The notes beneath the pieces are model-generated. The model saw only the letters and a list, made by a program, of their open reading frames with translations. It was not told the origin of the DNA and did no database searches. From IMG/VR virus record IMGVR_UViG_3300032282_002981, positions 1 to 44,421 of that record: a stretch of DNA of 44,421 nucleotides. One strand, 5' to 3'. Position 1 is the first letter of the stretch; each line of letters opens with the position of its first letter. The DNA comes from a virus. Position numbers and translations under genes: made by a program. Positions 3,400 to 20,196 of the stretch are shown here, piece by piece.

Positions 3400-3412
3400 G
3401 AGTTATTTATCC

Positions 3413-4984: not shown

Positions 4985-4994
4985 AGGGGCTTCC
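4973..4994 (-). promoter_or_regulatory. Hairpin enclosing the gp17 ribosome site and start codon
   Basis: On the minus strand GGAAGCCCC pairs with GGGGCTTTC (one G-U) around a TATG loop holding the gp17 ATG; the 5' arm includes most of the AAGGAA ribosome site. A tail TCTTGG is only weakly U-rich, so it may be a weak terminator of the upstream gene, a translational brake on gp17, or both. Confidence 0.6.
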
Positions 4995-5007
4995 TTGTTC
5001 CATTATA

Positions 5008-6794: not shown

Positions 6795-6812
6795 GGTTTT
6801 ATCACCTCTGAT

Positions 6813-7310
6813 TTATTTATCTTCAGACAAGCTGTTTGTATCCTTGAGCTTTCTCATCATTTCTTGGATAATACTGTTTCTGTCAGTTACCATGACAGCA
6901 TCAACAACTGGCCCATTAGGCCCTGCTTTATTAGCATCTCTGTCCATCTTTTCCTTGCGCATTTGTAGCTCAACAATGCGCAATTTCTTTTCAAGTTTGG
7001 CAGTTTTAGCATCTACTGCATTTTTCAGCATAGTTGATGCTACTTCAAATATCTTCCCAGAGTTACGATCGTCCATGTTAGAACCAAGCACCATTAACTG
7101 GTCAAATGCTTCTTCTGCTTTGGTTGCAAGATTATCTAGTGCTCGCTCTGTTTCGCTGATGTCTTTTACTTCTTCAAGTGCCGCATCAATTCGCTTGCTC
7201 ATGTCTAATGTGGAACGAAGTTCCATTATTTCAATTTGAGTTTCTTCAGCAGTGAGTGGTTCGCTTTCTACTTCTGGAAGATTGAATAAGTTTTCAAGTT
7301 TTTTGTTCAT
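6813..7310 (-). CDS. gp16: gp16 terminase small subunit
   Basis: DNA-recognition subunit of the packaging terminase; T4 gp16 forms oligomeric rings and stimulates gp17 ATPase. 165 aa, the same as T4 gp16 in size. Layout matches the family: short N-terminal LFNLPE segment, central coiled-coil-forming helices (residues ~30-115, including the IFEVASTMLKNAVDA helix shared in pattern with cyanophage gp16) and a variable C-terminal tail. Overlaps the gp4 stop by 4 nt (ATGA), so translation is probably coupled. Identification rests on length, helical pattern and gene context, since small terminases diverge fast. Confidence 0.82.
   Translation of the reverse strand: MNKKLENLFNLPEVESEPLTAEETQIEIMELRSTLDMSKRIDAALEEVKDISETERALDNLATKAEEAFDQLMVLGSNMDDRNSGKIFEVASTMLKNAVDAKTAKLEKKLRIVELQMRKEKMDRDANKAGPNGPVVDAVMVTDRNSIIQEMMRKLKDTNSLSEDK
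6814..6821 (-). promoter_or_regulatory. Late-type promoter box GATAAATA
   Basis: Minus-strand GATAAATA overlapping the gp16 stop codon, 19 nt before the ATG at 6794. One base from the T4 late consensus TATAAATA. A coding-sequence coincidence (Glu-Asp-Lys-stop) cannot be excluded. Confidence 0.45.
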
Positions 7311-7747
7311 CGTTTACCGCCCATGTTATTATATAGCTCTGTTTCAGTCACCACACGGAATTGCATGCCCATTTGTTTGCACCATGCACGTGCGGCTTCC
7401 CACTTTGCCATGTTTAATACTACTGCGGCTTTTTCGCTTTGGCTTCGAGCTTTTTCTAAGAGTGCTTGGCCTTTGGGTTTTATCTCAATGACTTCAGCTT
7501 TCTTATTGCCATCTTTGTCTTGATATGTGATCAAGAAATCTGGATAGTAAGTTGTTGGCTTACCTGTAAAAGGATTCTTGTAAGGTATACGAATGCTTTC
7601 GCTTGCCCATCCAACAATGCTAGGATGATTATCACAAAATCTCATAAAAGTAAGTTCCCAGCCACTGCGATATTTGGGTCTGTTTGAACCTATATATTTT
7701 GTTGGATTTTGCGGTATGTAAAAACCTTGTACATAGTTTCTTGCCAT
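7307..7747 (-). CDS. gp4: gp4 head completion protein (endonuclease-like fold)
   Basis: T4 gp4 (gp50) completes DNA-filled heads before tail joining. 146 aa, close to T4 gp4 (150). Family signatures seen: GFYIPQNPTKYIGSNRP at the N-terminus, the SGWELTFMRFCDNHP helix, IVGWASESIRIPY, then YYPDFLI followed by VIEIKPKGQ. The E(WELT)-PD-ExK arrangement matches the PD-(D/E)xK/TnsA-like nuclease fold reported for this family: Glu in WEL, Asp in YPDF, Glu-Ile-Lys in IEIKPK. One nt separates it from the preceding stop and its own stop overlaps the gp16 start, so it is tightly embedded in the head operon. Confidence 0.9.
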   Translation of the reverse strand: MARNYVQGFYIPQNPTKYIGSNRPKYRSGWELTFMRFCDNHPSIVGWASESIRIPYKNPFTGKPTTYYPDFLITYQDKDGNKKAEVIEIKPKGQALLEKARSQSEKAAVVLNMAKWEAARAWCKQMGMQFRVVTETELYNNMGGKR

Positions 7748-7748
7748 A

Positions 7749-8171
7749 TCAATATATAATCGCTCTATCTATGTGTGGCGGAATTGGTTCATCGCCAATT
7801 AAATCCAGTTTGCTTGAAGTGGCACGTTCTGCATTCAACGAATCAAGATATAATTGAGTAAATTTGAATCCACCTTGCGCTACTGCATAGGTACTTGCTA
7901 TGTTAGATATTTCATTGAAAGTAAATGTTCCAGCATTAACAAGCTTCAGCATTTCTTTTGCAATCAACGCACATCCAAATTTATCAATACCTTGTGATGC
8001 TAGCTGGCTGCGTAACCTATCAAACTGTCCAAGGTTAATGCTAGTCATGCCAGCTTTGTTAGATGCAGATGCATTCTCAAAGTTTCCATTGTACTCAACA
8101 ATAGTAGTTTTGAAAATACCAAATTCTTCTTGGGTAACTGATGCAGTTACTATGTTGTTTAATTCAGACAT
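7749..8171 (-). CDS. Unknown small protein between tail-tube and head-completion genes (140 aa)
   Basis: Not recognised. 140 aa, soluble, Ala/Asn/Ser-rich with alternating helices (QFDRLRSQLASQGIDKFG, ALIAKEMLKLVNAG). No motif visible. Its ATG overlaps the stop of the 325-aa tube-like gene by one base (TAATG) and it ends 2 nt before gp4, so it is translated in the same run and is probably a minor structural or assembly protein. No strong ribosome site of its own, which fits translational coupling. Confidence 0.75.
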   Translation of the reverse strand: MSELNNIVTASVTQEEFGIFKTTIVEYNGNFENASASNKAGMTSINLGQFDRLRSQLASQGIDKFGCALIAKEMLKLVNAGTFTFNEISNIASTYAVAQGGFKFTQLYLDSLNAERATSSKLDLIGDEPIPPHIDRAIIY

Positions 8172-9148
8172 TATCCAGGAAACCTTCTAATAACGTTCTC
8201 AAAGAACCTACCAACACTACGACCAACTTCTTGTACACCTCGTGATACAGTACCTGTTGCACCACCTACTGCCGTAACTCCAGTGGTTGCAGGCGGTCCA
8301 TATGCATAGCTTTCATATCGCCATGTGATTGTCCATGTCAATGCAGATCCACCGTTTGCATAGTCCAGTTGGTCTTGGCTAATATCAACTATCTTGGGAT
8401 TGTATAAAGTAATCTGTTGCGATTTATCTTCTGGCTGGCCGTCAGGTGTAGCGGCAACACCTGGTGACGTTATAGTATCAATGTATCCTGTTACATTTCC
8501 CATCACATCTACGTTTGGCATCTGTGTGGTTGTAGGGGCCACGGCTGATCTGCCTGGTGTACCTGGTCCCATCATTTCTTTTGTGATAACAATATGGCTG
8601 GCAAAATTGTCATTAAGTGTTGATGTAGGGCTGAAGTCACCAAAGTTAATACCGTCAATGATACCGCCTTGGCCAAAACCAGTTTTAGGAGAACGCATAC
8701 CGAACTCTGGTACATATCCAGAACCAAGCTGAAATGGTGCTCGCACATTAGGAGCATTATCCCAGTTTTTTGATTTGAAAGCCATGTACGCCATCAGATA
8801 TTGCTGGAAAGCATTATCCTGTGTATCATAGAAAGTCATAGTCAACGGTTCGTAGGAAACATGAGTATTCACGTTCCTACGAATGTTGTACTGATTCAGG
8901 GTTTGTGTTTCGACGGTGATTCGAGGTAGATCTGTTGATTTGATATAAAAACCAATACCGTTAACTAAATTGGCGGCAGCTGATCCTATTAAATTACCAA
9001 CTGCACCACCTGTTACTTCGGCGGTCGGACCAAACTGCATTGTCCACTGATAAAGATTTCTAACTTCAGCAGTCTGACCTGGTCCGTGTTGTACAGCTAC
9101 GTTATCAAATTGGATCAGGCCCTTGCCACCAGTATCAACTGTAGTCAT
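8171..9148 (-). CDS. Tail-tube-fold baseplate protein (gp54/gp48-like)
   Basis: Likely a baseplate/tube-junction protein with the tail-tube fold. In T4, gp48 and gp54 share that fold and form the first rings on which gp19 polymerises. Seen: FYIKSTDLPRITVETQTLNQ near residue 65, a VSYEPLTMTFYDTQDN strand pair, an insertion of ~100 residues (Gly/Pro-rich), then TLYNPKIVDISQDQLDY and ALTWTITWRYESYAYG, the closing strands that resemble tube proteins. 325 aa is near T4 gp54 (320). Position directly upstream-adjacent to gp19 supports this. Which T4 protein it matches cannot be decided by eye. AGGTGAT precedes the ATG. Confidence 0.65.
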   Translation of the reverse strand: MTTVDTGGKGLIQFDNVAVQHGPGQTAEVRNLYQWTMQFGPTAEVTGGAVGNLIGSAAANLVNGIGFYIKSTDLPRITVETQTLNQYNIRRNVNTHVSYEPLTMTFYDTQDNAFQQYLMAYMAFKSKNWDNAPNVRAPFQLGSGYVPEFGMRSPKTGFGQGGIIDGINFGDFSPTSTLNDNFASHIVITKEMMGPGTPGRSAVAPTTTQMPNVDVMGNVTGYIDTITSPGVAATPDGQPEDKSQQITLYNPKIVDISQDQLDYANGGSALTWTITWRYESYAYGPPATTGVTAVGGATGTVSRGVQEVGRSVGRFFENVIRRFPG

Positions 9149-9163
9149 GGGCCATCACCTTTA

Positions 9164-9802
9164 TTATTGAGCGCCGTTAGCGGTTGCTGTTGAAAGTCCA
9201 GTTGCTCTATTTGGTTGTAGTGATAGCTGTGAGCTACCGTTTACAACGTGATCGGCATTATCGTAACGAATTTGCATTGTGATGTTAACAACGTCGCTGG
9301 TTGCATAGTTGTTTTCACCGTACTGCACGTTCTGCAAGAAACAACCAGCTAATGTCCATTCATCAAGGACAATTGGAGTATCGCCTGCTGTGTTTACATT
9401 GTTTCCGCCATCAAGTGCTTCAATCTTCATTGCGAACTTATAGTTGGCGCCTGCAACAGGTGCGCTCTGTGCCGCATGGTTCAACTGACGTTGAAGTTGA
9501 GCAGCAATATTTCTATCTACGTTTCCGCTGATATCATCTTTTACAGTCAATGTAATTGGATCCCAAGTGTGCTTACCTGCAAGGTAAATCTTTGAGTTAT
9601 ATACATCAACAGTAATTTCTTCGTGTGTTAAGTTAGGCTTAGTTACGCTGACAACTTGCGATGTCAATGTACTAGTTGCCGCAAGTCCACCAAAGTTCAA
9701 TAGTGTGACACGGAAACGATAAGCTAACTTTGGCATCAGGATAGGGGAATCGCTTCCGCCTCCTGAGAGCTGTGGTACGCCAAAATTTATAACGGTGGCC
9801 AT
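9164..9802 (-). CDS. gp19: gp19 tail tube protein
   Basis: Major subunit of the inner tail tube, stacked as hexamers inside the sheath. 212 aa versus 163 in T4; the extra residues are an N-terminal Gly/Ser-rich piece and a C-terminal Gln/Asn/Thr tail. Conserved pattern seen: PKLAYRFRVTLLNFGG, ITVDVYNSKIYLAGKHTWDP and WTLAGCFLQNVQYGENNY with closing strands VVNITMQIRYDN. Start ATG at 9802 has AGGAGG 10 nt upstream. It has its own late-type promoter and is insulated from gp18 by a terminator, so tube and sheath can be made in different amounts. Confidence 0.93.
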   Translation of the reverse strand: MATVINFGVPQLSGGGSDSPILMPKLAYRFRVTLLNFGGLAATSTLTSQVVSVTKPNLTHEEITVDVYNSKIYLAGKHTWDPITLTVKDDISGNVDRNIAAQLQRQLNHAAQSAPVAGANYKFAMKIEALDGGNNVNTAGDTPIVLDEWTLAGCFLQNVQYGENNYATSDVVNITMQIRYDNADHVVNGSSQLSLQPNRATGLSTATANGAQ

Positions 9803-9827
9803 TTGGTATTCCTCCTGAATCTATGTT

Positions 9828-9835
9828 TATTTATA
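9828..9835 (-). promoter_or_regulatory. Late promoter of gp19 (perfect TATAAATA)
   Basis: Minus-strand TATAAATA, identical to the T4 late consensus, 25 nt upstream of the gp19 ATG and just downstream of the terminator after gp18. No -35 element, as expected for T4-type late promoters. Confidence 0.8.
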
Positions 9836-9868
9836 CTGCCGGGCTCATATTCATTTAGTACGCCTAGA

Positions 9869-9891
9869 AAAGAGGCCTAGTTGACCTCTTT
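9869..9891 (-). terminator. Rho-independent terminator after gp18
   Basis: On the minus strand AAAGAGGTC pairs with GGCCTCTTT (9 bp, one G-U) around an AACTA loop, followed by TTC. It lies 13 bp beyond the gp18 stop and before the gp19 late promoter. Confidence 0.7.
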
Positions 9892-9904
9892 CCTATGCTA
9901 TCCT

Positions 9905-12268
9905 TTAGACCCCTGCTGGTCCAAGGCTACCGGTATTAACTACACGTATTGGAATGTAGATGAATTCCGCGGCTTTTACAGGAGCAATAGCAACGTCCAC
10001 ATACAACTCGTTTCTATCGATTCGAGCTGGCGTGTTGTTTGTTTCATCGCAAACAACCAAGAAGTCGTACAATGCTCGCTTACTGATCATATCAGTCAAG
10101 AAGTCGTCGAAACGATTCTTAACAGACAAACGTGTCTGCTTGTCGTTTGGTTCAAAGATGAACGGACGAGCTAGTGGCTCAAAACGCTCACGCAAGTAGC
10201 AAACCAAACGTGCTACGTTAACACGATCAAGTGCGCTATCATATGGGTGCAATGTCTTCTGACCGAATACAAACAAGCCCTGTCCAGGGAAGTTTGTCAT
10301 TGGGTTAATACGCTTGATATACAATGCATCGCGCATGCCTTGGCTCAATGCCAATGGCATGAATTCGCTTTCGCTATTCACATAACCAAAGTTTGTTACG
10401 TTGCTTACTGCGCCGCGCTGTAGGCCAGCTGGAGCAAACCATGGATAAGCTACCTGGTCGTTGTAGGCATAAGTGCGCAGTACTGCATGGCTAGCTGGAA
10501 CAACAACGTCATTACCATCAAGGTCTGATGTGATTGCACTTGGATAGTAAACAGCTACGTTGGTATTGCGTGTAACAAGACCGTCTTCGCCATTGACACC
10601 AGCATTGGTACCAGTTGCCCATGTTTCTACTGCTGAACCACGTCCACTTAAACGTAATGGAGTATCGCCGATAATAAACGCAGTTTCCTTGCGGTTTACG
10701 TTCAACTCGATCATTTCGTCGATTGTCTCTGGATATGATGGGCAGGCAATTAAGCTGAAGCTTACTGTTTCATCAGCAAGTACTTCTTCACGAAGAGCTG
10801 CCTGCAAACGCTTGACAACCACACGACGCTGTGCTTTGCGCAACATGTAAGGTGCGCCAGCATTGAAGCCTGAATCGTAGTTGCCTGATTCTGTCTGCCA
10901 GTATGTGCCGTTGTATGTCTTAACATTACCTGTTGAAACGATTGCGTTCCAGCACAGCATGCCAGTTGGGTAGAACAATGGATCTGGTGCATCAACGTCG
11001 ATCAATGTTGCCGCGCCGCCATCTGTATCGTCATTGGCAGTTGTTGTCAAGTCAGCAAACACTACACCCATTGGTGTTGTTTGATCTGAATTGTCATGCA
11101 AGTCCCATGCGGCGCCATTGTATTCATAAATCTTTGGATAGTTTTCCATGTCTGAACTGTCAACCCAGATATCACCAGTTGAAGGACCAGCAGGTGCATC
11201 AGTGTTAATGTATACGTTAGCATTGTCAATTGGTTCCCATCCAAGTGAGCTCTTACGATACAAGTCAACTGTCAGTTCATCGTTGTACCACAATGTACCC
11301 ACTGCCGGTGTACCGGCTGGTTCGTTGGCATTGGCTTCGTATTCAAGATCTTCCCAACCCGATGATGTATAGATGCGCAACTTAAAGGCTGCTGAACCTG
11401 TTGTGGTTTTAGCATACACACGGTTAATAACATTCTGTCCGTTTGTATTAGCTGTTGAATCATCTGGGTAAGCAAGGATAGCAGTCTGAGCAGTTACCCA
11501 TGTACCTACAACCTGACCATTTGCAATAACATACTTCTTCAATGATGGTAAGAAACCATTGTTTGGAGAAGTTGTCTTGAACCATAGTGCGCCAGCGCCA
11601 GATGCATTTGGAATGCTATAGTGAGGAGCAATATTTACAAGTGATGTAACTGCCGCCCATGAACCTGTGGTTTTCTTGTAGATCTGATTTACGTTGGTCT
11701 GTGTTACCCAAGCATAATCACCGTTTGATCCATATCCAGCATCTGGTGCAGTACCGTCTAGATCATCAGCCATTGGCATCAGAAGAGTAACTGGTGACCA
11801 GTTGTCGTATGCATCGCCTGCTGCCGCTGCCACAAAAAGACCAAAACGTGCGGCAGATGTATCCATCCAGTAAGTGCCAGCTGTTGGCTGTGATGTTGGT
11901 TCTACTGAAGTTGGCTCTAGCTGTGCTAGATCAACGTCTGCACGGATAACGTATGCACGATTAGCAAGACCCAAGAAGCTATAGGCTGCATAGAGTCCGT
12001 ATTCGTTTGTTTCGTAACCGTGGATTGGAGTACCGTCAACGATCTTAAACTGTGGCTTGCCGTAACGGATCAAAAGATCACGTTGGCTAGTCAACAATTC
12101 CAAGACATTTGATTGGGTAGTTCCTGATGCAATCGTGGATCCATCCACGCTATATTTGTTTGCCTCTGTAGCAATCGCTATCAGTGGTACTGTGCCGTTG
12201 CCGGCTGAAACGTAGATGCTTTCGTCGATGACGCTAATCGCTACGCCTGGTGAAGTTAAAGTTGCCAT
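9905..12268 (-). CDS. gp18: gp18 contractile tail sheath protein
   Basis: Sheath subunit whose contraction drives the tube through the host envelope. 787 aa from the ATG at 12268 (T4: 659). The ATG is preferred over a TTG two codons upstream because AGGAG is 8-9 nt from it. Conserved C-terminal half: PWFAPAGLQRGAVSNV, KTLHPYDSALDRVNVARL, RFEPLARPFIFEPND, YDFLVVCDETNN and AAEFIYIPIRVV, which form the sheath core. N-terminal MATLTSPGVAISVIDES is also typical. Residues ~120-465 hold about four or five short modules of the form GxxWxx...YxxxxW, an enlarged surface domain. Related modules occur in gp14 and gp15 here. A late-type box lies in the leader and a terminator follows the gene. Confidence 0.95.
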   Translation of the reverse strand: MATLTSPGVAISVIDESIYVSAGNGTVPLIAIATEANKYSVDGSTIASGTTQSNVLELLTSQRDLLIRYGKPQFKIVDGTPIHGYETNEYGLYAAYSFLGLANRAYVIRADVDLAQLEPTSVEPTSQPTAGTYWMDTSAARFGLFVAAAAGDAYDNWSPVTLLMPMADDLDGTAPDAGYGSNGDYAWVTQTNVNQIYKKTTGSWAAVTSLVNIAPHYSIPNASGAGALWFKTTSPNNGFLPSLKKYVIANGQVVGTWVTAQTAILAYPDDSTANTNGQNVINRVYAKTTTGSAAFKLRIYTSSGWEDLEYEANANEPAGTPAVGTLWYNDELTVDLYRKSSLGWEPIDNANVYINTDAPAGPSTGDIWVDSSDMENYPKIYEYNGAAWDLHDNSDQTTPMGVVFADLTTTANDDTDGGAATLIDVDAPDPLFYPTGMLCWNAIVSTGNVKTYNGTYWQTESGNYDSGFNAGAPYMLRKAQRRVVVKRLQAALREEVLADETVSFSLIACPSYPETIDEMIELNVNRKETAFIIGDTPLRLSGRGSAVETWATGTNAGVNGEDGLVTRNTNVAVYYPSAITSDLDGNDVVVPASHAVLRTYAYNDQVAYPWFAPAGLQRGAVSNVTNFGYVNSESEFMPLALSQGMRDALYIKRINPMTNFPGQGLFVFGQKTLHPYDSALDRVNVARLVCYLRERFEPLARPFIFEPNDKQTRLSVKNRFDDFLTDMISKRALYDFLVVCDETNNTPARIDRNELYVDVAIAPVKAAEFIYIPIRVVNTGSLGPAGV

Positions 12269-12276
12269 GTTCAAGT

Positions 12277-12324
12277 CTCCTGAGTATTGGCTTTTCAGCT
12301 GTATCTATTTAGCTGACGCTCAGG
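12277..12324 (-). promoter_or_regulatory. gp18 leader: late-type box between hairpin arms
   Basis: Minus-strand GCTAAATA (12313-12306) is a late-type box 37 nt before the gp18 ATG. Upstream CCTGAG (12324-12319) is complementary to CTCAGG (12284-12279), which overlaps the gp18 ribosome site; an inner CAGCT/AGCTG pair flanks the box. A transcript starting at the box would lack the CCTGAG arm, leaving the ribosome site open. Confidence 0.5.
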
Positions 12325-12376
12325 AAAATGGGTGGTATTTACCAGGAACCTTAAAAATCGTTATCCAGCATGCGCA

Positions 12377-12994
12377 TCATAACACGGCATTGAGCTGTTT
12401 GTATAGTTCGTCAAATGAACGATTGTTATCTACTATATAGTCAAAATTGGTTCCAACCCAGGCAGTTTCGCTAGCATGTATGCCTTCTTGTGTCAGGAAA
12501 CGCTGTGCAGACTCGCTGCCTTTGTTTGCTTGAACAGCAATATCATGCCAATGCGGTAAGATACCGCGCTGTACCCAGATGACCTTGCCGCCTGCTGACT
12601 TGATAGCTTTGATCTCGTTTGGAAACCTGCAATCAGAGATGACAATGTTGTCTTGGCTGGTACGAAGTTTGTTTTCTACGCTGGCAATCCAGATATCATT
12701 GTGGAATCCTTTACGGCACACTTCTGTGCCCCACAACTGTAACACAAGACGAGGAGTTAGGTTAGGCATTTCAAGGCGTTCTGCCCACCACGGATCAATT
12801 TGCTCTCGCCATTCACGTGCGTGTTTGGTGCGACCTTCAAGCATTTCTCGGTCCCAACCAAATACAGCGGCGACAGCATCTTTGAGAGTAGCGGCAAATG
12901 AGTCTCGTCGAAACCCGTGGATGTTAACCAGATAATCTGCGGCTGTGTCTTTGCCGGAACCTATGAAACCGCAGATGCCAATAAGTTTTGTCAT
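12377..12994 (-). CDS. gp1: gp1 deoxynucleoside monophosphate kinase
   Basis: Phosphorylates dNMPs to dNDPs, feeding phage DNA synthesis (T4 gene 1 family). 205 aa versus 241 in T4. Seen: P-loop GFIGSGKDT at residues 9-17 right after the start, the EQIDPWWAERL segment, LVLQLWGTEVCRKGFHNDIW (family-typical GTE/WI region), and DNIVISDCRFPNE, the Walker-B-like DxRFPNE element. The P-loop fixes the start: no other start codon fits upstream of residue 9. There is no Shine-Dalgarno; the ATG lies 6 nt after a -10 box, so the mRNA is predicted leaderless. A nucleotide-metabolism gene set between sheath and neck genes, with its own early-type promoter. Confidence 0.93.
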   Translation of the reverse strand: MTKLIGICGFIGSGKDTAADYLVNIHGFRRDSFAATLKDAVAAVFGWDREMLEGRTKHAREWREQIDPWWAERLEMPNLTPRLVLQLWGTEVCRKGFHNDIWIASVENKLRTSQDNIVISDCRFPNEIKAIKSAGGKVIWVQRGILPHWHDIAVQANKGSESAQRFLTQEGIHASETAWVGTNFDYIVDNNRSFDELYKQLNAVL

Positions 12995-13000
12995 AGTGCT

Positions 13001-13029
13001 ATATTAGCAAAATTAACAATCAAGGTCAA
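13001..13029 (-). promoter_or_regulatory. Sigma70-type promoter of gp1
   Basis: Minus-strand TTGACC (13029-13024), 17 bp, TAATAT (13006-13001). The -35 box contains the TGA stop codon of gp13. Predicted initiation falls on or next to the A of the gp1 ATG (12994). Confidence 0.8.
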
Positions 13030-13763
13030 CCTATAACAATACCAAGTGGCTTTCCGCCTTCTTCGTAAAGTCCAATTGATAGATCTAGTTTTTCTAGTTC
13101 GGCCTGTGCTTCAACTTTGAGATTTTCACCATTCAAACTTGAGCCGCCCTGTGGACCTGCTATCTGTGCAAACTTGCTACGTGCTTCACCTAGCATCATC
13201 TTAGCATGGGCTGTTGAATAATCTTTGATCCACGAACCGGCATACACATCTGTAAACAATGAAACGTCTGGACGGAACATGTAGGCTTGCACAATGATTG
13301 AATCATTCTGTGACTTGATGTTACGATGTAACCTGAGTGTCTTGGTCTGTTCTACCCAGTCAAATATGATTTCTTGACCAAACATCCTACCAAGCAATTC
13401 ACGATACTGCGAATAAATTTCGTAGTTTACTAGTGAACCTGAACCTGTGCTTTGCAGTAGGTATGCGTTAATATACGCCGCGCCAAACGGTTCAAAGGAA
13501 ACACCAGACGATACGCCACCTGCGCCACTGCGGAAAAGATAGCGTACCTGGATGACTTCTTGGGGCAATACGTAAGTGTCCTGTTGGGGCTGTAAATCAA
13601 GAACTAGGTAGCCTTCTTCTACAGAATTAGAACTGCGCTGACGATACTTGCTTATAGCACGATTGATTGCGATGTCGTAGTGATCTCGGTCCAACTCAAC
13701 GTCAACCATGCCGCCACCCAAACGTAGCTCAATTTCGCGGATTATATCGTTTCTTGTTGTCAT
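13026..13763 (-). CDS. gp13: gp13 neck protein (head-tail connector)
   Basis: Neck protein which in T4 assembles with gp14 on the portal after packaging. Assignment rests on pattern: N-terminal RNDIIREIELRLGGGMVDVE followed by HYDIAINRAISKYRQRSSNS, YLVLDLQPQQDTYVLP, and C-terminal WIKDYSTAHAKMMLGEARSK, GGSSLNGENLKVEAQAELEK. 245 aa against 309 in T4. It follows a terminator hairpin so closely that the ATG directly abuts the T-run; GGAGG in the 3' arm, 7 nt upstream, is the ribosome site. Its stop codon lies inside the gp1 promoter. Partner gp14 is 2.6 kb away on the other strand, unlike the usual adjacent arrangement. Confidence 0.82.
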   Translation of the reverse strand: MTTRNDIIREIELRLGGGMVDVELDRDHYDIAINRAISKYRQRSSNSVEEGYLVLDLQPQQDTYVLPQEVIQVRYLFRSGAGGVSSGVSFEPFGAAYINAYLLQSTGSGSLVNYEIYSQYRELLGRMFGQEIIFDWVEQTKTLRLHRNIKSQNDSIIVQAYMFRPDVSLFTDVYAGSWIKDYSTAHAKMMLGEARSKFAQIAGPQGGSSLNGENLKVEAQAELEKLDLSIGLYEEGGKPLGIVIG

Positions 13764-13800
13764 AAAAAAGCCTCCGATAGTATTTAGCTACCGGAGGCTT
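13764..13800 (-). terminator. Terminator hairpin with a late-type box in its loop
   Basis: On the minus strand AAGCCTCCGGTAG (13800-13788) pairs with CTATCGGAGGCTT (13780-13768) over 13 bp with a single G-U, then T6 and immediately the gp13 ATG. It is a strong Rho-independent terminator for the 421-aa gene. The 7-nt loop reads CTAAATA, a late-type promoter box, and the 3' arm carries the gp13 ribosome site GGAGG. The one non-Watson-Crick pair is G-U only on the minus strand (A-C on plus), which fits minus-strand function. Confidence 0.85.
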
Positions 13801-13816
13801 GCGTGACAGCGACGGA

Positions 13817-15082
13817 TTACTTGTATGCCCTTAGCAGTATGGTATGCTCGTTAGTACGTCCGTTGAGCGCAATATCTGTGCTCTTGACTTTTTCCAACCA
13901 CTTACGTGCCGCTGGCTTGCCAAGTGTAAGGAACTCTTTGAGCTGTACCTCTGGCTTGCGCAGGGTCTTTTGACGGCTGTCTTTTGTACTAAACCCTAGC
14001 AAGCTGGCTCCTTTGACGGAGAGCACTTTGCTATAATCGTCTGCTACATAGATACCAATCTTGCGTGTCTTGACGTTGTACACCCAAATTTCGCTTGAAC
14101 CAATCAGCTTGGTTGGGTCAATACTAACCAGTCCAGTCGCATCGTCTTTCTTGAGGAACTTGATGCCCTTGACTTGCTTCTCAAGCGGAACAGGCTTGCG
14201 CTTACGTGGCGCACGTTCTGCTTTCTTGACGGTACCATAGCTGTTAGCGGCGTCAACCACAGTGGTCCACATCTCAATCGTGCTCTTGATCTGCTTCTTG
14301 CTAAGATGCCTGTAGCCTTCAACTAACTGCTCTTCGTCATCTGAACGTTCAGACACCTTCTTAGAGATTGCTTCCTGTAGCTCAAGATATTCTTCTAGCT
14401 TGGGTTCGGCCCACTTTAGCACATCACCGACTTGGTTCTGATGCAGGTTAAACTGCTTGAACAAGCCAAACACGTTTACCTTACCAGTGTGTCCATTGCC
14501 TACAAACTCGTCAACGAGCCCTTCAGCTTCACCAAGACACTCACCTAGCTTTTCTCGCATGCGCTCCTGGATAGTAGGCTGGTAACCTTTTGGCTTTTCA
14601 TTCTTTTCTTCTTTGTCAGCTTCATCTGCAAGGAACTTCTTGTACTCAATCTCAGCCAGCTTGATAGCCTTGACAAGATAGCGCAGGGTACTGTAAGGTA
14701 CATGGCCGCCGCGCATGATAACACGTGAGATCCAGCCTGCTGTACGACTAAGGCGCCAGTCTTGCATTTTCTTATAACGCTCAATCAAATGCTTGCGCTT
14801 GGGCATAGCACCAATCAGCTGTTCGGTCCACGCTCGTGCATCTGCGCCTTCACAGTTATACGAATACCAATTGTAGATACGGGCCATTTCAATCGTTTCA
14901 AGCACACGATCCTGGGGAGGCACTGGCTCATCGCCCACATACTTGATCTCACCAACTGTGACTTTGACGGGTTTGAGCTTGAACGCCTGCGTAAGCGGAC
15001 GCAACGGTAAAGGAGTAGACGTGTCCGCAAATACCATCTTGGGTGCAGGCGATGCGATTCGTTTTGATTGCAGTCTTGCCAT
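13817..15082 (-). CDS. Unknown phage protein (421 aa) with own early-type promoter
   Basis: Not recognised. Basic, soluble, 421 aa. Helical segments dominate residues ~55-270 (many Lys/Glu, including DEADKEEKNEKPK), followed by a basic patch APRKRKPVPLEKQ near 290 and a C-terminal beta-rich part (SSEIWVYNVKTRKIGIYVAD) ending at a terminator. AAGGAG sits 8 nt before the ATG and a TTGACC-17-TATAAT promoter 28 bp upstream. The promoter type suggests early expression, so a host takeover or replication-accessory role is more likely than a structural one. Basic patches would allow nucleic-acid binding; that is a guess. Confidence 0.82.
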   Translation of the reverse strand: MARLQSKRIASPAPKMVFADTSTPLPLRPLTQAFKLKPVKVTVGEIKYVGDEPVPPQDRVLETIEMARIYNWYSYNCEGADARAWTEQLIGAMPKRKHLIERYKKMQDWRLSRTAGWISRVIMRGGHVPYSTLRYLVKAIKLAEIEYKKFLADEADKEEKNEKPKGYQPTIQERMREKLGECLGEAEGLVDEFVGNGHTGKVNVFGLFKQFNLHQNQVGDVLKWAEPKLEEYLELQEAISKKVSERSDDEEQLVEGYRHLSKKQIKSTIEMWTTVVDAANSYGTVKKAERAPRKRKPVPLEKQVKGIKFLKKDDATGLVSIDPTKLIGSSEIWVYNVKTRKIGIYVADDYSKVLSVKGASLLGFSTKDSRQKTLRKPEVQLKEFLTLGKPAARKWLEKVKSTDIALNGRTNEHTILLRAYK

Positions 15083-15109
15083 GTTGGCTCCTTATGTGTT
15101 CAATGTGTA

Positions 15110-15138
15110 ATTATACGAGAGAACCAGATTGTGGTCAA
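15110..15138 (-). promoter_or_regulatory. Sigma70-type promoter of the 421-aa gene
   Basis: Minus-strand TTGACC (15138-15133), 17 bp, TATAAT (15115-15110). The -35 box overlaps the TGA stop of the 88-aa gene upstream, the same arrangement as at gp13/gp1. Confidence 0.88.
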
Positions 15139-15401
15139 CCCCAGTCTTTGAAATCACCGTTGCGCTCGTTATTTTCGTACCCAGCCATGTATTCAGCAAT
15201 TTCAGCTGGAGTGAGATTCACGATACGATCGCCACGGCTAGTGCCTTCTGGATACCAGTGTGGTTCAGGGCCACGGCGATAGTAACTATCTGCTGAGCCA
15301 CGGTCATAAAGTCCACCATGACGCTCACGATCAAACGGACGTTCGTCCTTGAAACCCAACGGGGTCATGCCAGCAAGGGCCTGGACTTGTGGTGTCTTCA
15401 T
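15135..15401 (-). CDS. Small hydrophilic phage protein (88 aa)
   Basis: Function unknown. Rich in Arg, Asp, Gly and Tyr: GLYDRGSADSYYRRG, PEPHWYPEGTSRGDRI, then a short helix LTPAEIAEYMAGYENN. No Cys, no hydrophobic segment. AAGGAGG 8 nt before the ATG is one of the strongest ribosome sites in the window. The ATG overlaps the stop of the 131-aa gene by one base (TAATG), so both are made from the promoter at 15824-15852. Its composition looks like an adaptor or binding protein made early, but this is not demonstrated. Confidence 0.82.
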   Translation of the reverse strand: MKTPQVQALAGMTPLGFKDERPFDRERHGGLYDRGSADSYYRRGPEPHWYPEGTSRGDRIVNLTPAEIAEYMAGYENNERNGDFKDWG

Positions 15402-15793
15402 TATGCAACCTCCTTAAGGATGGCATCAAATTCAGCCTGCATGCGGTAGGGCAGGCCCAGCTCAAAGCAAATGTAGGAGCCGCCGTATGCACGGTCGTAC
15501 TCAGTGAGGTTAAGGCTGTCAATGATCCAACGTACAGCCACTTCGCGGCTGGGCGCACCCAGCTCAATATTTTTAGCAACCTGCGACTCAAACTGAGCAA
15601 CGGCTATGGCCTCGCGAGCTTCTTCTTCCTTGATGGAAGCTTCAAGAGCACGGAGGAGACCGTCCCAGATAGCCTGCTTCTCGTCCATAGTGGACAAGTT
15701 CCAGTGATTCCAAAAGCCCTCACGTGGACGAAAGCCATATGCATCCTTGTGTAAATCGGACACAATATCTGCATCAAATGTGTACTGGCTCAT
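15401..15793 (-). CDS. Small phage protein (131 aa), early-type cassette
   Basis: Function unknown. MSQYTFDADIVSDLHKDAYG is followed by FRPREGFWNHW and a long Ala/Glu-rich helix (residues ~40-75), then NLTEYDRAYGGSYICFELGLP. The ATG at 15793 is chosen over one ten codons upstream because AAGGAG lies 8 nt before it and the upstream ATG falls between the -10 box and the expected leader. Paired with the 88-aa gene downstream (1-base overlap). A mostly helical 15-kDa acidic protein. Confidence 0.82.
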   Translation of the reverse strand: MSQYTFDADIVSDLHKDAYGFRPREGFWNHWNLSTMDEKQAIWDGLLRALEASIKEEEAREAIAVAQFESQVAKNIELGAPSREVAVRWIIDSLNLTEYDRAYGGSYICFELGLPYRMQAEFDAILKEVA

Positions 15794-15823
15794 CGCTGGC
15801 TCCTTATCGTTCATCATACCCAT

Positions 15824-15852
15824 ATTATGCTACAAAATGGGTTCACTGTCAA
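15824..15852 (-). promoter_or_regulatory. Sigma70-type promoter of the 131-aa/88-aa pair
   Basis: Minus-strand TTGACA (15852-15847), 17 bp, CATAAT (15829-15824), then a leader of about 24 nt with AAGGAG. Confidence 0.88.
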
Positions 15853-15882
15853 CCACTTTTTTCCACTTTTTTGGACTATTTT

Positions 15883-15910
15883 GCAGGTGTTGCAAGAATA
15901 CAACACCTGC
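15883..15910. repeat. Perfect 10-bp inverted repeat (hairpin) in intergenic region
   Basis: GCAGGTGTTG (15883-15892) and CAACACCTGC (15901-15910) with an 8-nt loop, 13 bp beyond the stop of the 86-aa gene. No clear T-run follows on the minus strand; on the plus strand a T-rich stretch starts ~10 nt later. Possibly a terminator or 3'-end stabiliser, or a protein-binding palindrome. Confidence 0.6.
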
Positions 15911-15923
15911 TAAGTTGTTGTTT

Positions 15924-16184
15924 TTATTGGATTTTTTGTGCTTTAGCAAATGCTTTGCTAGCAGGGCTCTCTACTAGCACTATATTTTGCATGCGCAAGT
16001 CTTGAAGGGCTTGCTTTATAGCTAATTTTACGTCTACGTCATCTAATACTGAGCGTGTAGTTAACACTTGCACAATTTTATTTGAAGTGTTGTCTGTAAC
16101 GAGCCCAATTTTAAGCTCAAAACGGTCCGTTTTTTTGCCGCTCCAAGTTTTAACTTGCTGTAGCTTTGCAATAGCTTGTGACAT
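15924..16184 (-). CDS. Small phage protein (86 aa), own early-type promoter
   Basis: Function unknown. 86 aa, basic, with Lys-rich N-terminal half (KLQQVKTWSGKKTDRFELK) and a strand-helix-strand pattern (GLVTDNTSNKIVQVLTTRS, VKLAIKQALQDLRM). No Cys or membrane segment. AAGGAG lies 6 nt before the ATG; a TTGACG-17-CATAAT promoter precedes it. Of the same style as the neighbouring 131-aa and 88-aa genes, small proteins with strong ribosome sites and host-like promoters, hence probably early host-interaction proteins. Confidence 0.8.
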   Translation of the reverse strand: MSQAIAKLQQVKTWSGKKTDRFELKIGLVTDNTSNKIVQVLTTRSVLDDVDVKLAIKQALQDLRMQNIVLVESPASKAFAKAQKIQ

Positions 16185-16213
16185 GTGTGACTCCTTAGTT
16201 GCCTAGTGTTTGT

Positions 16214-16242
16214 ATTATGCACGAAACGAGCGTGGGCGTCAA
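16214..16242 (-). promoter_or_regulatory. Sigma70-type promoter of the 86-aa gene
   Basis: Minus-strand TTGACG (16242-16237), 17 bp, CATAAT (16219-16214), leader of ~24 nt. It fires away from the gp14 promoter in a divergent 145-bp gap. Confidence 0.85.
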
Positions 16243-16303
16243 CCGTTTTTCTAGGATTTTTGTGTTGTATTTTTGCAACAGATCTCAGCTGGATGGCTGG
16301 CAC

Positions 16304-16311
16304 CATAAATA
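16304..16311 (+). promoter_or_regulatory. Late-type promoter of gp14/gp15
   Basis: CATAAATA on the plus strand, 18 nt before the gp14 ATG and upstream of its GAGGAA ribosome site. One base from the T4 late consensus. The only candidate promoter seen for the plus-strand block. Confidence 0.7.
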
Positions 16312-16329
16312 TACTGTGAGGAACCTATA

Positions 16330-17391
16330 ATGCCACGTTTAAGCCTTTGGCGCAAAGATAAGACCAACGATTACAAGTTCATTGATCGCAACATCAAAGA
16401 ACAGTTCATGGTTGGCGGAACATCCATCCTGATCCACAAATACATTGGCCCTGATCCGCAAGGCGAAACAGGAGATCCAACACAGCCCAACTATCAAGCT
16501 GACGATGTTTTCAATGAAACAAAAATCCAGGACTTGCTGTTCTTAGAAAATCGTGATCGCAAGTACGACAAAGACATCTATGATATGCGCGGTGTGTACA
16601 ACGTAGGCGACAATGATTTTGACCTGACACAGTTTGGCCTGTTCATCAACACAGACGTACTGTTTATCACGTTCCACTTGAACGACATGATCGAACGACT
16701 GGGTCGCAAGATAATGGCAGGTGACGTGTTTGAAGTTCCGCATCAGCGCGATGATACGCTACTTGATCCCAATGCTCCAGCTATCAACAAATGGTATGTG
16801 GTACAGGATGCTAGCAAGGCAGCAGAAGGATACAGCCAAACATGGTGGCCACACTTGTGGCGTGTCAAGGCTGCTCCGTTAACAGACGCACAAGAATACA
16901 AGGACATACTTGGACAAGCAACTGATCCTGACAGTCTTAAGAACCAGATCAGTACCTATGTCAAAGAGAAAGAAATTTCAGACGCAATCGTTGCGGCAGC
17001 GGCCCAAGAAGTTCCAGACTTGTATCCGGATGTCAGTACGCTGTTCAACTATGATACTCCGCCTGATCCAAATGGTCCAACTGATGCGGCAGGGTTTGAA
17101 CAATATTATGGAGTACCAATCGCAAGCGGTGTGATATTTCCAGGTAACCCACAGCAAGGTGATATGTTCATACGTACAGATTTCTTACCAAACCGCTTGT
17201 TCGTATATCGTGGCGGTCGTTGGGCAAGATTGTACGACAACGTGTTCCCGAGCAGGACAGATGTTGTTGCACGTTCTGTCAACGCAGGTGGCTTTATCAA
17301 CAATGACACACAAGGTGTCAACCTTGATGGCCAGGCTTATCCAACAAGACAACCAATCAGCGGTGTGGTTAAACCAAGGACAGACTTCTAA
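16330..17391 (+). CDS. gp14: gp14 neck protein
   Basis: Neck/head-completion protein that joins head to tail with gp13 and gp15. 353 aa against 256 in T4. Pattern seen: LLFLENRDRKYDKDIYDMRG, the FDLTQFGLFINTDVLFITFH segment, GDVFEVPHQRDDTLLDP, KWYVVQDASKAAEG and WWPHLWRVKAAPLTD, which fit marine gp14 proteins. Residues ~268-302 hold a short module (QQGDMFIRTDFL then LFVYRGGRWARLYD) resembling inserts in gp18 and gp15. AGGA 7 nt before the ATG. Its stop overlaps the gp15 start by one base (TAATG). The strand switch separates it from gp13. Confidence 0.85.
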   Translation: MPRLSLWRKDKTNDYKFIDRNIKEQFMVGGTSILIHKYIGPDPQGETGDPTQPNYQADDVFNETKIQDLLFLENRDRKYDKDIYDMRGVYNVGDNDFDLTQFGLFINTDVLFITFHLNDMIERLGRKIMAGDVFEVPHQRDDTLLDPNAPAINKWYVVQDASKAAEGYSQTWWPHLWRVKAAPLTDAQEYKDILGQATDPDSLKNQISTYVKEKEISDAIVAAAAQEVPDLYPDVSTLFNYDTPPDPNGPTDAAGFEQYYGVPIASGVIFPGNPQQGDMFIRTDFLPNRLFVYRGGRWARLYDNVFPSRTDVVARSVNAGGFINNDTQGVNLDGQAYPTRQPISGVVKPRTDF

Positions 17392-18737
17392 TGAATTATT
17401 TCTACGATCGCCAAATACGTCGTTACCTGCAACAGTTCATGCGATTCTTTGCAGGCTTCAGTGTGAAGATGGGCAAGGATACAAATGGATTAGACATATA
17501 TCAAAAAGTTCCTGTGCGCTACGGTGATATCAATCGTATGGCAGCGCACATCTTGAAGAACAACAGTGACAACACCATGAACACAGTTCCGTTCATTGCT
17601 GTGTATATCACTGAACTGTTGCCTGCACCAGAACGCCGGCTCAATCCCACACATACTGACTCAGTACAAGTGTACGAAAAACAGTACGATGCGGCCAGCG
17701 GTCAATTCCTAGACCAAATGGGACAGACATATACCATCAAGCGTCACATGCCTGTACCATATGACCTAAACGTACAGGTTGATATATGGACTTCAAATAC
17801 TGATCAAAAGCTACAGTTGATGGAACAGATATTGGTGTTGTTCAATCCGTCGCTGGACCTGCGCAACAACGACAACGTGTTTGACTGGAGCCGCATGAAC
17901 TTTGTGGAACTGATCAATACTGTATGGAGTGTGCGACAAGTTCCCAATGGCACAGATGATGTGCTTGATGTGGCTAGCATGATATTCAACTTGCCTATCT
18001 TTATCAATCCTCCTGCAATGGTACAGCGCCAGCAGTTGATCTACAACGTGATCAACACGATCCGTGCAGGTGACCAGGATGAGCTTAATCAGTTACTGGA
18101 TGATACCTATATCAGCGACGTGCAGTCCAAGTGGCAAAGTGTCACAGATCCTGAACGTGCTGTGCGTTTGGCCAACGGTGAACTTACATTGCTCACGCGA
18201 GATCTAAAGACCACAGTGGGCGGCGACTTGTTGTTATGGAACAAGTTCCTAGAGTCGTATGGTGGCATACGCAACGGTATAAGCCAGATCCGTGTCAATC
18301 GGCAGGATCGTCCAGGTGTATGGGGAGGCGAATATGTTGGTGTACTAACTGAACACCCAACTGACCCAAACAAACTTCTTGTTGATATCGATAGTGATAG
18401 TTTGCCTTCAAACACAAAGACAGCTATTGATGGCGTAATAGATCCTACACGTGCCGCACCAGGTGCAGGATTGCCTGCGGCAGCGGCTGGCCAGCGATAC
18501 ATAGTTGTATCATCACCTGCTGAGATTCCTGCATGGGATGGTCTTGTAGCAAATCCCGAAGACATCATTGAATACAATGGTAGTGCGTGGGTGATAAGTT
18601 TTGATGCGGCTGCTTCTACCGCAGTCGAATATGTCTTAAATATTGCAAGCAATCAACAATTAGCTTTCATGGATGGACAATGGATACTGAGTTACGAGGG
18701 GATATTTCAACCGGGATACTGGCGCCTGCTGGTGTAA
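17391..18737 (+). CDS. gp15: gp15 tail terminator / sheath stabiliser, extended
   Basis: Caps the finished tail and provides the head-binding interface. 448 aa, much longer than T4 gp15 (272). Core at residues 1-210: MNYFYDRQIRRYLQQFMRFF, VPVRYGDINRMAAHIL, VPFIAVYITELLPAP, then QTYTIKRHMPVPYDLNVQVD and LMEQILVLFNPSLDL. Residues ~210-340 are a helix-rich extension and ~355-445 carry a DIIEYNGSAWVISF-type module similar to those in gp14 and gp18. Starts inside the gp14 stop and overlaps the Nudix start by 58 nt, so the plus-strand genes are tightly coupled. Confidence 0.88.
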   Translation: MNYFYDRQIRRYLQQFMRFFAGFSVKMGKDTNGLDIYQKVPVRYGDINRMAAHILKNNSDNTMNTVPFIAVYITELLPAPERRLNPTHTDSVQVYEKQYDAASGQFLDQMGQTYTIKRHMPVPYDLNVQVDIWTSNTDQKLQLMEQILVLFNPSLDLRNNDNVFDWSRMNFVELINTVWSVRQVPNGTDDVLDVASMIFNLPIFINPPAMVQRQQLIYNVINTIRAGDQDELNQLLDDTYISDVQSKWQSVTDPERAVRLANGELTLLTRDLKTTVGGDLLLWNKFLESYGGIRNGISQIRVNRQDRPGVWGGEYVGVLTEHPTDPNKLLVDIDSDSLPSNTKTAIDGVIDPTRAAPGAGLPAAAAGQRYIVVSSPAEIPAWDGLVANPEDIIEYNGSAWVISFDAAASTAVEYVLNIASNQQLAFMDGQWILSYEGIFQPGYWRLLV

Positions 18738-19165
18738 CACGAGCCGCTGGCGGTTTGATCTATGCACTAGACACGCACAGATATTGCTGGCAGTTACGTA
18801 GCACAGAAGAAAAGTGGAGCGGCACATGGGGATTATGGGGTGGTCGCAGTAATCCCAAAGAAAGCCCTCGAGACACGCTACTTAGAGAGTGCCAAGAAGA
18901 AACAGGCATAACAGAATGGAACAAAATCGTACCATTGCATAGATACGTTAGCAAAGACAAGAAATTTATCTACGACACATTTTGCTTGGTAGTAGAGAAA
19001 GAATTCCTTCCAGTACTAGATCACGAAAGCGATGGCTACTGCTGGTTACCACTCGGAGTTCAGCCAAAGCCACTACATCACAAAAGCAAACAGCTGGTAC
19101 AGAATAGCAGTTTCATGAGCAAGTTGGTCAACATGGAGAAATGGTTAGATCAGCATGTCGATTGA
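18680..19165 (+). CDS. Nudix hydrolase
   Basis: Hydrolyses nucleoside-diphosphate-linked substrates. The box is complete: G-RSNPK-E, then seven residues, RECQEETGI (pattern GX5EX7REUXEEXGU) at residues ~55-77, with the preceding WSGTWGLWGG typical of the family. 161 aa from the ATG at 18680, which overlaps the gp15 end by 58 nt; no other in-frame ATG precedes the fold, so a long overlap is hard to avoid. The substrate cannot be read from sequence: oxidised dNTP, ADP-ribose, dinucleoside polyphosphate or capped RNA are all known for phage Nudix enzymes. It overlaps the next gene by 11 nt. Confidence 0.9.
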   Translation: MDTELRGDISTGILAPAGVTRAAGGLIYALDTHRYCWQLRSTEEKWSGTWGLWGGRSNPKESPRDTLLRECQEETGITEWNKIVPLHRYVSKDKKFIYDTFCLVVEKEFLPVLDHESDGYCWLPLGVQPKPLHHKSKQLVQNSSFMSKLVNMEKWLDQHVD

Positions 19166-19559
19166 AGCAGAAATAATTATTTTTCCAAAGACTATCAAGG
19201 CACCAGTAACCAGGCGCGGCGTAGATTTATATCATTGCTGGGATAAAAGACTAGCCAATCCACGACTAAAGAAAACATACAAAGACAGTATCAGTTGGAT
19301 CGAGCGTTGGTACTTAGAAGCAAGATACCATGCGAACAAAGAAAATTGGGATCACCCTATTGTAAAAGCTGTAAGGGAAGATAAAGAATTTAATCGACTG
19401 TTACGTTGGTGTTGCCTAGAGGATATCAAGTTATTGCAGACGTTAGCTGAAAATCCTATCTATAGGGACAGTAGTGCTACACAAAGACGTAGGCTTATCA
19501 TATGGCACAACAAATTTGCCGCGCTTATACTAAATCAGGAAATAGACAATCGCTTATAA
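19155..19559 (+). CDS. Unknown protein (134 aa), convergent with the bilin reductase gene
   Basis: Not recognised. Basic, helical, Trp/Tyr-rich: DLYHCWDKRLANPRLKKTY, ISWIERWYLEARYHANK, then RLLRWCCLEDIKLLQTLAEN. No metal motif beyond an adjacent Cys pair. The ATG overlaps the Nudix end by 11 nt, so it is probably co-translated. The last 35 bp overlap the end of the oppositely directed bilin reductase gene. A small inverted repeat at 19549-19567 spans its stop codon. Confidence 0.7.
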   Translation: MSIEAEIIIFPKTIKAPVTRRGVDLYHCWDKRLANPRLKKTYKDSISWIERWYLEARYHANKENWDHPIVKAVREDKEFNRLLRWCCLEDIKLLQTLAENPIYRDSSATQRRRLIIWHNKFAALILNQEIDNRL

Positions 19560-20196
19560 AGCGATTAACAGTAGTTTCATCAAAGCCAAGACTTTGCATT
19601 ACCCGAGGCGTATGAGGATTCATACGTTGATGCTGAGAATAAAAGTTCTGGCATCCTTTTGTATACTCTCTTTCTTTAAGATCAAGAGTTTTCCCTACAT
19701 TACCTAAGTACCACGGCAACGTAGTTGATACCATGTTTAGAATCTGATCAATTTCTTTTTCGTCACTTACGTTACCAGCGGCTACCATACCCGGGCTGAA
19801 TATCATACGTGCCCACTCAGGTAGTTCGCGTTCTTTCCGCCAATCATATTGCTTAACATGTTCTTGAAACCATAACATCATTTCATGTCGTGGATCACTT
19901 GACGCACTAAAATCATGGAAGCAACCGGTTATCTTCTTCTCGCCACAAATGATATCAAACCCAAATATAGGGCTTGTATCGTTAGTATGTGGATAGACTG
20001 TTACGTGTAACATATAGAGACCTTTTGTATCACGAACATCTACTGCATCAAGATGGGCTCGTCTGTAGGATGCTGATGTCCACACATGATTAGGCCAAGG
20101 AAAATCATGCCCTTCGTTGACTGGCAATCCAGTTGAGTCTAACATCGCCTGGATATCATCTTGAAGCTTCAGCATGGTGTCCCAAACATAGCTCAT
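19525..20196 (-). CDS. Ferredoxin-dependent bilin reductase (PcyX/PcyA/PebS family)
   Basis: Reduces biliverdin IXalpha with electrons from ferredoxin to a phycobilin. 223 aa, normal for the family. Seen: SYRRAHLDAVDVRDTKGLYM at ~43-62, LHVTVYPHTNDTSPIFGFD (His64), ITGCFHDFSASSDPRH with candidate catalytic Asp95, the LPEWARMIFSP helix near 125-135 and the C-terminal VNRFISDCLFP. The HDFS Asp and LPEW..IFS element are family hallmarks. Phage members make phycoerythrobilin (PebS; PcyX from uncultured ocean phages), and the product here cannot be assigned by eye. It overlaps the heme oxygenase stop by 4 nt (ATGA), so substrate supply and reduction are coupled. Confidence 0.9.
   Translation of the reverse strand: MSYVWDTMLKLQDDIQAMLDSTGLPVNEGHDFPWPNHVWTSASYRRAHLDAVDVRDTKGLYMLHVTVYPHTNDTSPIFGFDIICGEKKITGCFHDFSASSDPRHEMMLWFQEHVKQYDWRKERELPEWARMIFSPGMVAAGNVSDEKEIDQILNMVSTTLPWYLGNVGKTLDLKEREYTKGCQNFYSQHQRMNPHTPRVMQSLGFDETTVNRFISDCLFPDLV

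Follow-up and report, generated by a model that had tools for sequence, protein, structure and literature searches.

Organization of the gp13 locus

The DNA analysed here, called the window throughout, is a 44,421-base IMG/VR record of a virus of bacteria. Its T4-like virion genes include those for a gp13-like neck protein, the tail sheath, the tube, head closure and terminase, and a deoxynucleoside monophosphate (dNMP) kinase gene sits among them (Table 1). No tRNA was found in the window, and megablast of positions 10001-20000 against the phage collection gave no match. The gene order 421-aa homologue, gp13, kinase, sheath is kept in PA5oct, the nearest named phage by this measure. The window also carries a tryptophan-halogenase-like gene at 23631-25148 (PHROG 2928, E 2e-99), in what is a phage.

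Table 1. Features of the gp13 and tail-sheath loci, in window coordinates
Feature	Positions	Strand	Remarks
Sigma70 promoter of the 421-aa gene, TTGACC-17-TATAAT	15110..15138	-	
421-aa gene, PHROG 11903	13817..15082	-	upstream of gp13; plausibly early
Intrinsic-terminator-like hairpin, 13-bp stem and 7-nt loop	13768..13800	-	
5' arm AAGCCTCCGGTAG	13788..13800	-	anti-Shine-Dalgarno arm
T4-type late promoter box CTAAATA	13781..13787	-	exactly the loop
3' arm CTATCGGAGGCTT	13768..13780	-	contains the Shine-Dalgarno sequence
Shine-Dalgarno GGAGG of gp13	13771..13775	-	7 nt 5' of the ATG
T6 tract	13764..13769	-	candidate terminator U-tract and SD-to-ATG spacer in one
ATG of gp13	13761-13763	-	
gp13-like neck gene (head-tail adaptor Ad2, 245 aa)	13026..13763	-	PHROG 211, E 1e-35; presumed late
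Sigma70-like promoter of the kinase gene	13001-13029	-	
dNMP kinase gene	12377..12994	-	between two late genes
Second SD-masking hairpin, TTTCCTGAG ... CTCAGGAGA	12276..12327	-	around the late box, 5' of the sheath gene
Late box CTAAATA of the tail-sheath gene	12306..12312	-	
Tail-sheath gene, 787 aa from ATG	9905..12268	-	789 aa if the upstream TTG is taken

Read on the minus strand from 13800 to 13761, the element in front of gp13 is AAGCCTCCGGTAG CTAAATA CTATCGGAGGCTT TTTTATG. The stop of the 421-aa ORF (at 13817) lies 16 nt 5' of the stem, the stem has 13 pairs, one of them G.U, and the T6 tract directly adjoins the gp13 ATG, two of its Ts belonging to the stem. The sequence-only reading of this DNA had described the 13-bp stem, the CTAAATA loop, the GGAGG of the 3' arm and the T6 run abutting the gp13 ATG, and both the letters and the predicted fold agree with it (minimum free energy -21.4 kcal/mol, z -6.17, none of 200 shuffles equally stable). 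A stable GC-rich stem of 13 bp followed by a U-tract is the make-up of an intrinsic terminator. In a scan for terminator-like hairpins that covered positions 1-20000 and 24422-44421, this hairpin had the highest pair count among the 41 matches of the first interval, and the second held one match with 15 pairs, AT-richer than the gp13 hairpin. A search of Rfam with positions 13600-13900 returned nothing above the gathering threshold (NsiR1 reached 16.8 bits, against a gathering value of 39, E 0.56). A function on the plus strand was dropped, as the stem there precedes GCGTG with no T-run and the surrounding long ORFs are on the minus strand.

The window and the relatives L002, L003, L005 and L006 (of which L002 and L003 are identical at this promoter) share both hexamers of the 421-aa gene's sigma70 promoter without change, the spacer varies, and the PA5oct homologue has TTGACA-18-TACAAT. 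This conservation makes the 421-aa gene plausibly early, and thereby supports a label that the sequence-only reading had given it by inference. The kinase promoter is TTGACC-17-TAATAT in the window, with TATAGT or TATATT as its -10 in the same four relatives. With sigma70-like promoters in front of both the 421-aa and the kinase gene, late genes thus seem to be interspersed with early ones along a single strand, a setting that PMC2988022 describes as common to the mask-controlled genes of T4. The -10 of the kinase promoter is only 6 nt 5' of the kinase ATG, and therefore the early mRNA of this gene may be leaderless.

The late box and the late sigma factor

Neither CTAAATA (three found in the window, about six expected) nor TATAAATA (one found, about two expected) is enriched as a word; what distinguishes the late box is its position. 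Ten of the 15 TAAATA boxes of the window precede a same-strand start by no more than 45 nt, when about 2% would be expected (p 4e-14, using our own list of 41 gene starts in the window). Seven of the ten genes behind them belong to virion families (neck, sheath, tube, tail fibre and three head or virion proteins), one to a NUDIX family and two to families of unknown function, so that TAAATA is found just 5' of late virion genes, as is typical of T4-type late promoters. The late box spans -13 to -6 in T4, and CTAAATA starts at -12 in Aeh1, according to the part of PMC1524935 on box placement. From this published placement we infer that the late +1 of gp13 is position 13775, the first G of GGAGG, which falls within the range 13774-13780 where the sequence-only reading had expected a late 5' end.

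A late sigma factor of the gp55 type (PHROG 12791) is encoded by the 339-kb relative G004 (E 2e-94), and the same family is present in PA5oct, Phosso and Atu_ph07. No gp55-type sigma turned up when the 44-kb window record, the close contigs G001 and G002 and the 217-kb relative G003, all four of which are or may be fragments, were searched with PHROG 234 and 12791; PHROG 351 misses T4 gp55, and the search relied on the other two families. The gp33 family (PHROG 254) is present in three of 12 records, T4, Syn9 and S-CAM1. In L105, a sigma-factor-like gene (11739-12509, PHROG 351) has a late-type box within its SD hairpin, an arrangement that could allow transcription feedback.

Predicted masking and release of the gp13 ribosome site

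In the predicted fold of read-through RNA the gp13 SD is unpaired with a probability of 8e-5, against 0.62 in the predicted late RNA and 0.48-0.76 for RNAs beginning 12-19 nt 5' of the ATG. The two marks of the T4 gene e and I-TevI type of control are thus found here, an SD predicted to be paired in RNA coming from upstream, and a late box between the two arms, the box being the loop and the start site being placed as above. According to PMC3014915 and PMC2988022, control of this kind is established for the T4 genes e, soc, 49 and I-TevI and has also been described for mobE (Aeh1) and segB, so that the masking mechanism, which the sequence-only reading had proposed without naming these T4 genes, has established precedents.

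Masking does not extend to late genes at large. Masked SD-led genes number 2/6 with a box and 3/16 without one in the window, 1/6 and 2/13 in G001 (where gp13 fell on a piece boundary), 2/4 and 3/11 in G002, and 2/7 and 1/20 in 50 kb of PA5oct; in G004 the figures are 5/35 for late genes vs 9/104, with no enrichment. These counts led us to reject the idea that late genes are masked in general, and therefore to regard masking as gene-specific. PA5oct has no strong masks at gp13 and sheath (SD unpaired 0.15 and 0.28), and we did not rely on the Phosso gp13 mask, which appears in folds with 80 or 100 nt of upstream sequence (P 0.006) but not with 60 nt.

Late boxes inside SD hairpins occur in other settings. 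HNH and GIY-YIG endonuclease genes in L037, L093 and L127 have them, in the manner of T4 I-TevI. T4 itself carries at 77344-77379 (L174) a palindrome in which both strands have late boxes and each end has an SD and start codon; the ORFs that follow, on opposite strands, encode 196 and 150 aa.

Conservation of the hairpin in relatives

In the close relatives L002, L003, L005, L006 and L056, whose gp13 proteins are 80-97% identical, the 5' arm core GCCTCCGGTAG is unchanged, and the stem core and TAAATA are retained. The loop, the flanks and the T-run vary in this group and the stem core does not: the loop of L005 and L006 has 9 nt, GTAAATATA, and the T-run reads TTTTTT in the window, TTTTTC in L002, L003 and L056, TTTTCC in L004 and TTTCC in L005 and L006.

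A wider survey used 78 of the 80 gp13 loci listed, 64 of them distinct. Among these matches listed, 33 have the box exactly 5 nt 5' of the ATG, 21 have a box and an open SD, nine (including L240, which is the L056 contig) have a box and a masked SD, and one has a box with no recognised SD; by the same criterion 21 of the 30 box-plus-SD gp13 starts listed are therefore not masked. The masked loci L254, L255 and L267, with gp13 proteins 51-53% identical, read AAAATCTCCCG, box, CGGGAGATTTTT(T)ATG and have a P(SD unpaired) of 0.0001 each, so that they share the plan of the window (box, SD, T-run, ATG) with different arms. Relative to the window group, stem positions -5, -4, -1, 4 and 5 differ on both sides in these three loci with pairing retained, and an invariant GGAG/CTCC core lies amid these two-sided changes in an alignment anchored on GGAG; positions 6 and 7 change on both sides only via L076, whose gp13 is 25% identical. 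The eight sequences of this comparison were picked for being masked, and the covariation is therefore an illustration rather than an unbiased test; close-group arms are nearly identical, so it rests on the lineages selected as masked. L255 and L267 also hold an upstream gene of the 421-aa family (PHROG 11903), the kinase and a masked sheath gene (P(SD unpaired) 0.0003 and 0.0010), but in both the PHROG 11903 gene is separated from gp13 by an extra ORF, and gp13 from the kinase by one or two.

A second predicted mask, at the tail-sheath gene

The SD of the sheath gene lies within a 9-bp stem that encloses its own late box, and in predicted folds it is unpaired with a probability of 0.009 in read-through RNA vs 0.43 in late RNA. 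This hairpin is retained in the window, L002, L003, L004 and L006. Beyond the close group, a survey that used 64 of the 80 loci listed, 51 of them distinct, found 32 of 51 sheath starts masked, 18 open and one without a box. Among the same matches listed, the controls, compared with the masked counts by Fisher tests, were 48/255 for shuffled upstream stretches, 3/72 for box-less SD starts of the same loci and 19/68 for their other box-bearing SD starts. In a subgroup (L351, L356, L362, L365, L368, L369, L377 and L389) the late box TAAATATCT itself forms the anti-SD arm, as computed folds show for L356 and L368 and as judged by eye for the others. The sheath masks of the survey have no T-run, by eye and among the matches listed.

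The putative terminator half and its occurrence elsewhere

A scan of viral contigs for CCTCC-box-GGAGG gave at least 120 stretches; of the 119 distinct matches listed, 51 have a start downstream on the strand of the box alone, 17 on the opposite strand alone, one on both strands and 50 on neither. These stretches were combined with the other collected loci, GGAGG lying 3-12 nt 5' of an ATG, and among the matches listed a T-run of at least four in the SD-ATG gap was found in 28/59 starts with CCTCC and box, in 5/20 with CCTCC and no box and in 4/162 without CCTCC (Fisher 4e-15 for the first against the last). Many of the 28 are related, and grouping by protein similarity places a T5 case in eight of 34 clusters. 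The end of a same-strand ORF lies no more than 150 nt upstream for 24/29 T-run cases and 24/31 others among the matches listed, so upstream gene ends do not distinguish the T-run cases.

We scored the hairpins with a terminator formula of the d'Aubenton-Carafa type. On this scale the window reaches +25.9, L056 +24.6, L087 +23.3, L038 +21.8, L002 +19.9, S-CAM1 +18.7, L068 +15.7, L035 +9.7, Atu_ph07 +9.6, L055 +6.4, L267 +4.6 and L254 +2.0; negative values were obtained for L005 and L006 (-5.3), L255 (-8.2), L262 (-12.0), L189 (-32.9), L119 (-34.3), T4 e (-36), L076 (-55.8) and Phosso (-94.7), those of L255, L119 and L189 despite a T-run. The L004 score was discarded, as the contig begins inside the 5' arm. 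By the same formula, gp13 of the window is the sole positive among 91 SD-led ATGs scored in the window and nine of the 17 G004 pieces.

Among named phages the composite is carried by S-CAM1 (164556-164589) and Atu_ph07 (225069-225014). That of S-CAM1 stands 3' of genes annotated as recombination protein, primase/helicase, MazG and a small ORF and 5' of two ORFs and a cytidyltransferase, gene 182 directly behind it being a PHROG 8438 member with no known function; that of Atu_ph07 precedes a 138-aa hypothetical gene. S-RIM44 lacks the S-CAM1 composite, as do S-RIM32 and Sf-CH11, to judge by the pattern being missing there. The looser pattern CTCC-box-GGAG occurs 28 times in 15 named phage records, vs five for the reversed control, the two palindromic T4 sites being counted twice in the 28.

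The sequence-only reading, which had joined termination, masking of read-through RNA and late release in one element, therefore fares differently in its parts. Masking and release, as modelled, have good comparative support in the conserved stem core, in the arms altered with pairing retained in other lineages and in the predicted difference in SD pairing; we hold this firmer half of the reading to be very likely, and sequence comparison gives good support for counting the element among masked late genes. The termination part has the score of the window and the excess of T-runs among the matches listed in its favour, and against it L005 and L006, close relatives with TTT and a negative score. 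Real termination at the U-tract is the weaker half, which we still think somewhat better than an even bet, and a terminator is likely in the window itself and not fixed in the group.

A model for the element and its alternatives

The element is probably a late switch of the T4 gene e type, for gp13, with a terminator built into it. RNA polymerase starting at the 421-aa gene's sigma70 promoter would make an RNA in which the 13-bp hairpin forms; some of this early RNA would terminate at the U-tract, and the read-through part would carry GGAGG locked in the 3' arm, so that gp13 would remain untranslated from it. Late in infection, a gp55-type sigma factor, which the phage presumably has, would recognise CTAAATA in the loop DNA, and the late RNA would start at about 13775, opening with its own ribosome site, 5'-GGAGGCUUUUUUAUG. 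Such an RNA would have no 5' arm and therefore could not fold, leaving the SD free.

Masking with late release being already known, the new part looks like the built-in terminator. As described for T4 gene e in the sources at hand (PMC3014915, PMC2988022), early read-through RNA would hide the SD in a hairpin, promoter placement would leave late RNA without the 5' arm, and the late gene would lie on transcripts of early or middle genes, here perhaps those from the sigma70-like promoters. T4 gene e differs in having two TATAAATA boxes 5' of the SD and no U-tract, whereas in the window a single box makes up the whole 7-nt loop, a terminator is predicted at the stem, and its U-tract doubles as SD-to-ATG spacer. 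The masked genes also differ, being neck and sheath here and lysis or homing genes in T4-type cases. T4 intrinsic terminators likewise consist of a GC-rich stem and a poly(U) tract, but with a 4-nt loop, in the section of PMC2988022 devoted to them, while in the window the 7-nt loop is a late box and the ribosome site lies in the 3' arm; unlike the window element, the terminators of mobE and segF described there lie within the coding region. The Aeh1 late promoter has the same CTAAATA box, from -12, and the part of PMC1524935 that presents it describes no terminator or mask alongside. We found no description of a fused terminator, mask and late box in the open-access literature searched.

A simpler view keeps the gene e-type mask and the late promoter and takes the T-run as an AT-rich spacer at which little termination occurs. 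The close group lends itself to this view, as its stem core is invariant while the T-run decays to TTTCC, and T-runs are lacking from the gp13 masks of the L076 group, from T4 gene e, with its negative terminator score, and, by eye, from the sheath masks. It leaves unaccounted for the concentration of T-runs at hairpin-plus-box starts among the matches listed, their recurrence with different arms in L254, L255, L267, S-CAM1, Atu_ph07 and L087, and the singular positive score of the window start among those scored, and we consider it rather unlikely.

That the hairpin is an ordinary intrinsic terminator of the 421-aa gene, in which the loop box and the arm SD are coincidental, would fit a GC-rich stem with T6 directly after a gene end. 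We judge this highly improbable: TAAATA stays in the loop of close relatives even where loop length is altered, the arrangement recurs with new arms at distant gp13 genes and in a second case at the sheath gene, and starts among the distinct matches listed prefer the box strand threefold. Stable hairpins beside gene ends often stabilise RNA, and the element could on that general ground serve chiefly in RNA protection or processing, as a 3'-end stabiliser or RNase site, with translation control secondary. This leaves unexplained both the arm changes that preserve pairing with an invariant SD core and the box in the loop, and is very unlikely.

If the late switch with a built-in terminator is correct, mask and terminator can be compressed into about 40 bp, giving a ready-made early-off/late-on part; the silencing of late genes in early read-through RNA known from T4 would not be confined to lysis and homing genes, and large environmental phages would use it repeatedly for virion genes that sit among early ones. 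On a broader proposal our opinion is evenly balanced, namely that a single late box of 6-8 bases, through its placement, serves large T4-related phages as a genome-wide code for the translation of late messages. Its classes would be a mask fused to a terminator (gp13, S-CAM1 gene 182), a box inside or forming a mask arm (sheath), a box 5' of an open SD, and a box exactly 5 nt before the ATG of a leaderless message without SD. If this holds, every class but the open one ties translation to the gene's own late promoter.

Late boxes five nucleotides before the start codon

In 28 distant relatives (L007-L034), TAAATA lies exactly 5 nt 5' of the ATG in 24 of 199 distinct starts, at 1-4 nt in none and at 0 nt in two, and an SD is present in 1/34 starts with a box at 4-8 nt vs 51/148 box-less starts. 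Starts were taken as the first ATG of long ORFs and some will be wrong, which should blur a peak at 5 nt and not create it. The distances in G004 are bimodal, with 24 boxes at 5-8 nt (one with an SD), three at 10-11 nt, 32 at 16-32 nt and none at 0-4 nt; beyond 8 nt, 27/35 have an SD (p 2e-8). Boxes at 5 nt stand before many SD-less genes in L007-L034, L219-L235 and L265-L319. With T4 box spacing, transcripts of this class would start on the A of the ATG, and we predict from these sequences that distant T4-like relatives make leaderless late mRNAs, which would make leaderless translation a mass strategy in a group of T4-like phages. No description of leaderless late mRNAs in T4-like phages was found in the open-access literature searched; PMC5312081 says in a passing remark that phage transcripts are often leaderless.

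The close group has few such boxes: one gene each at 4 and 7 nt in the window, two at 4 nt in G001 and G002 together, and one at 5 nt in the 50 kb of PA5oct. The two window genes are at 2191-3399 and 38790-39983, their boxes 4 and 7 nt 5' of the ATG, so near-leaderless late RNA is likely for both; the first has AGGA just upstream of its box.
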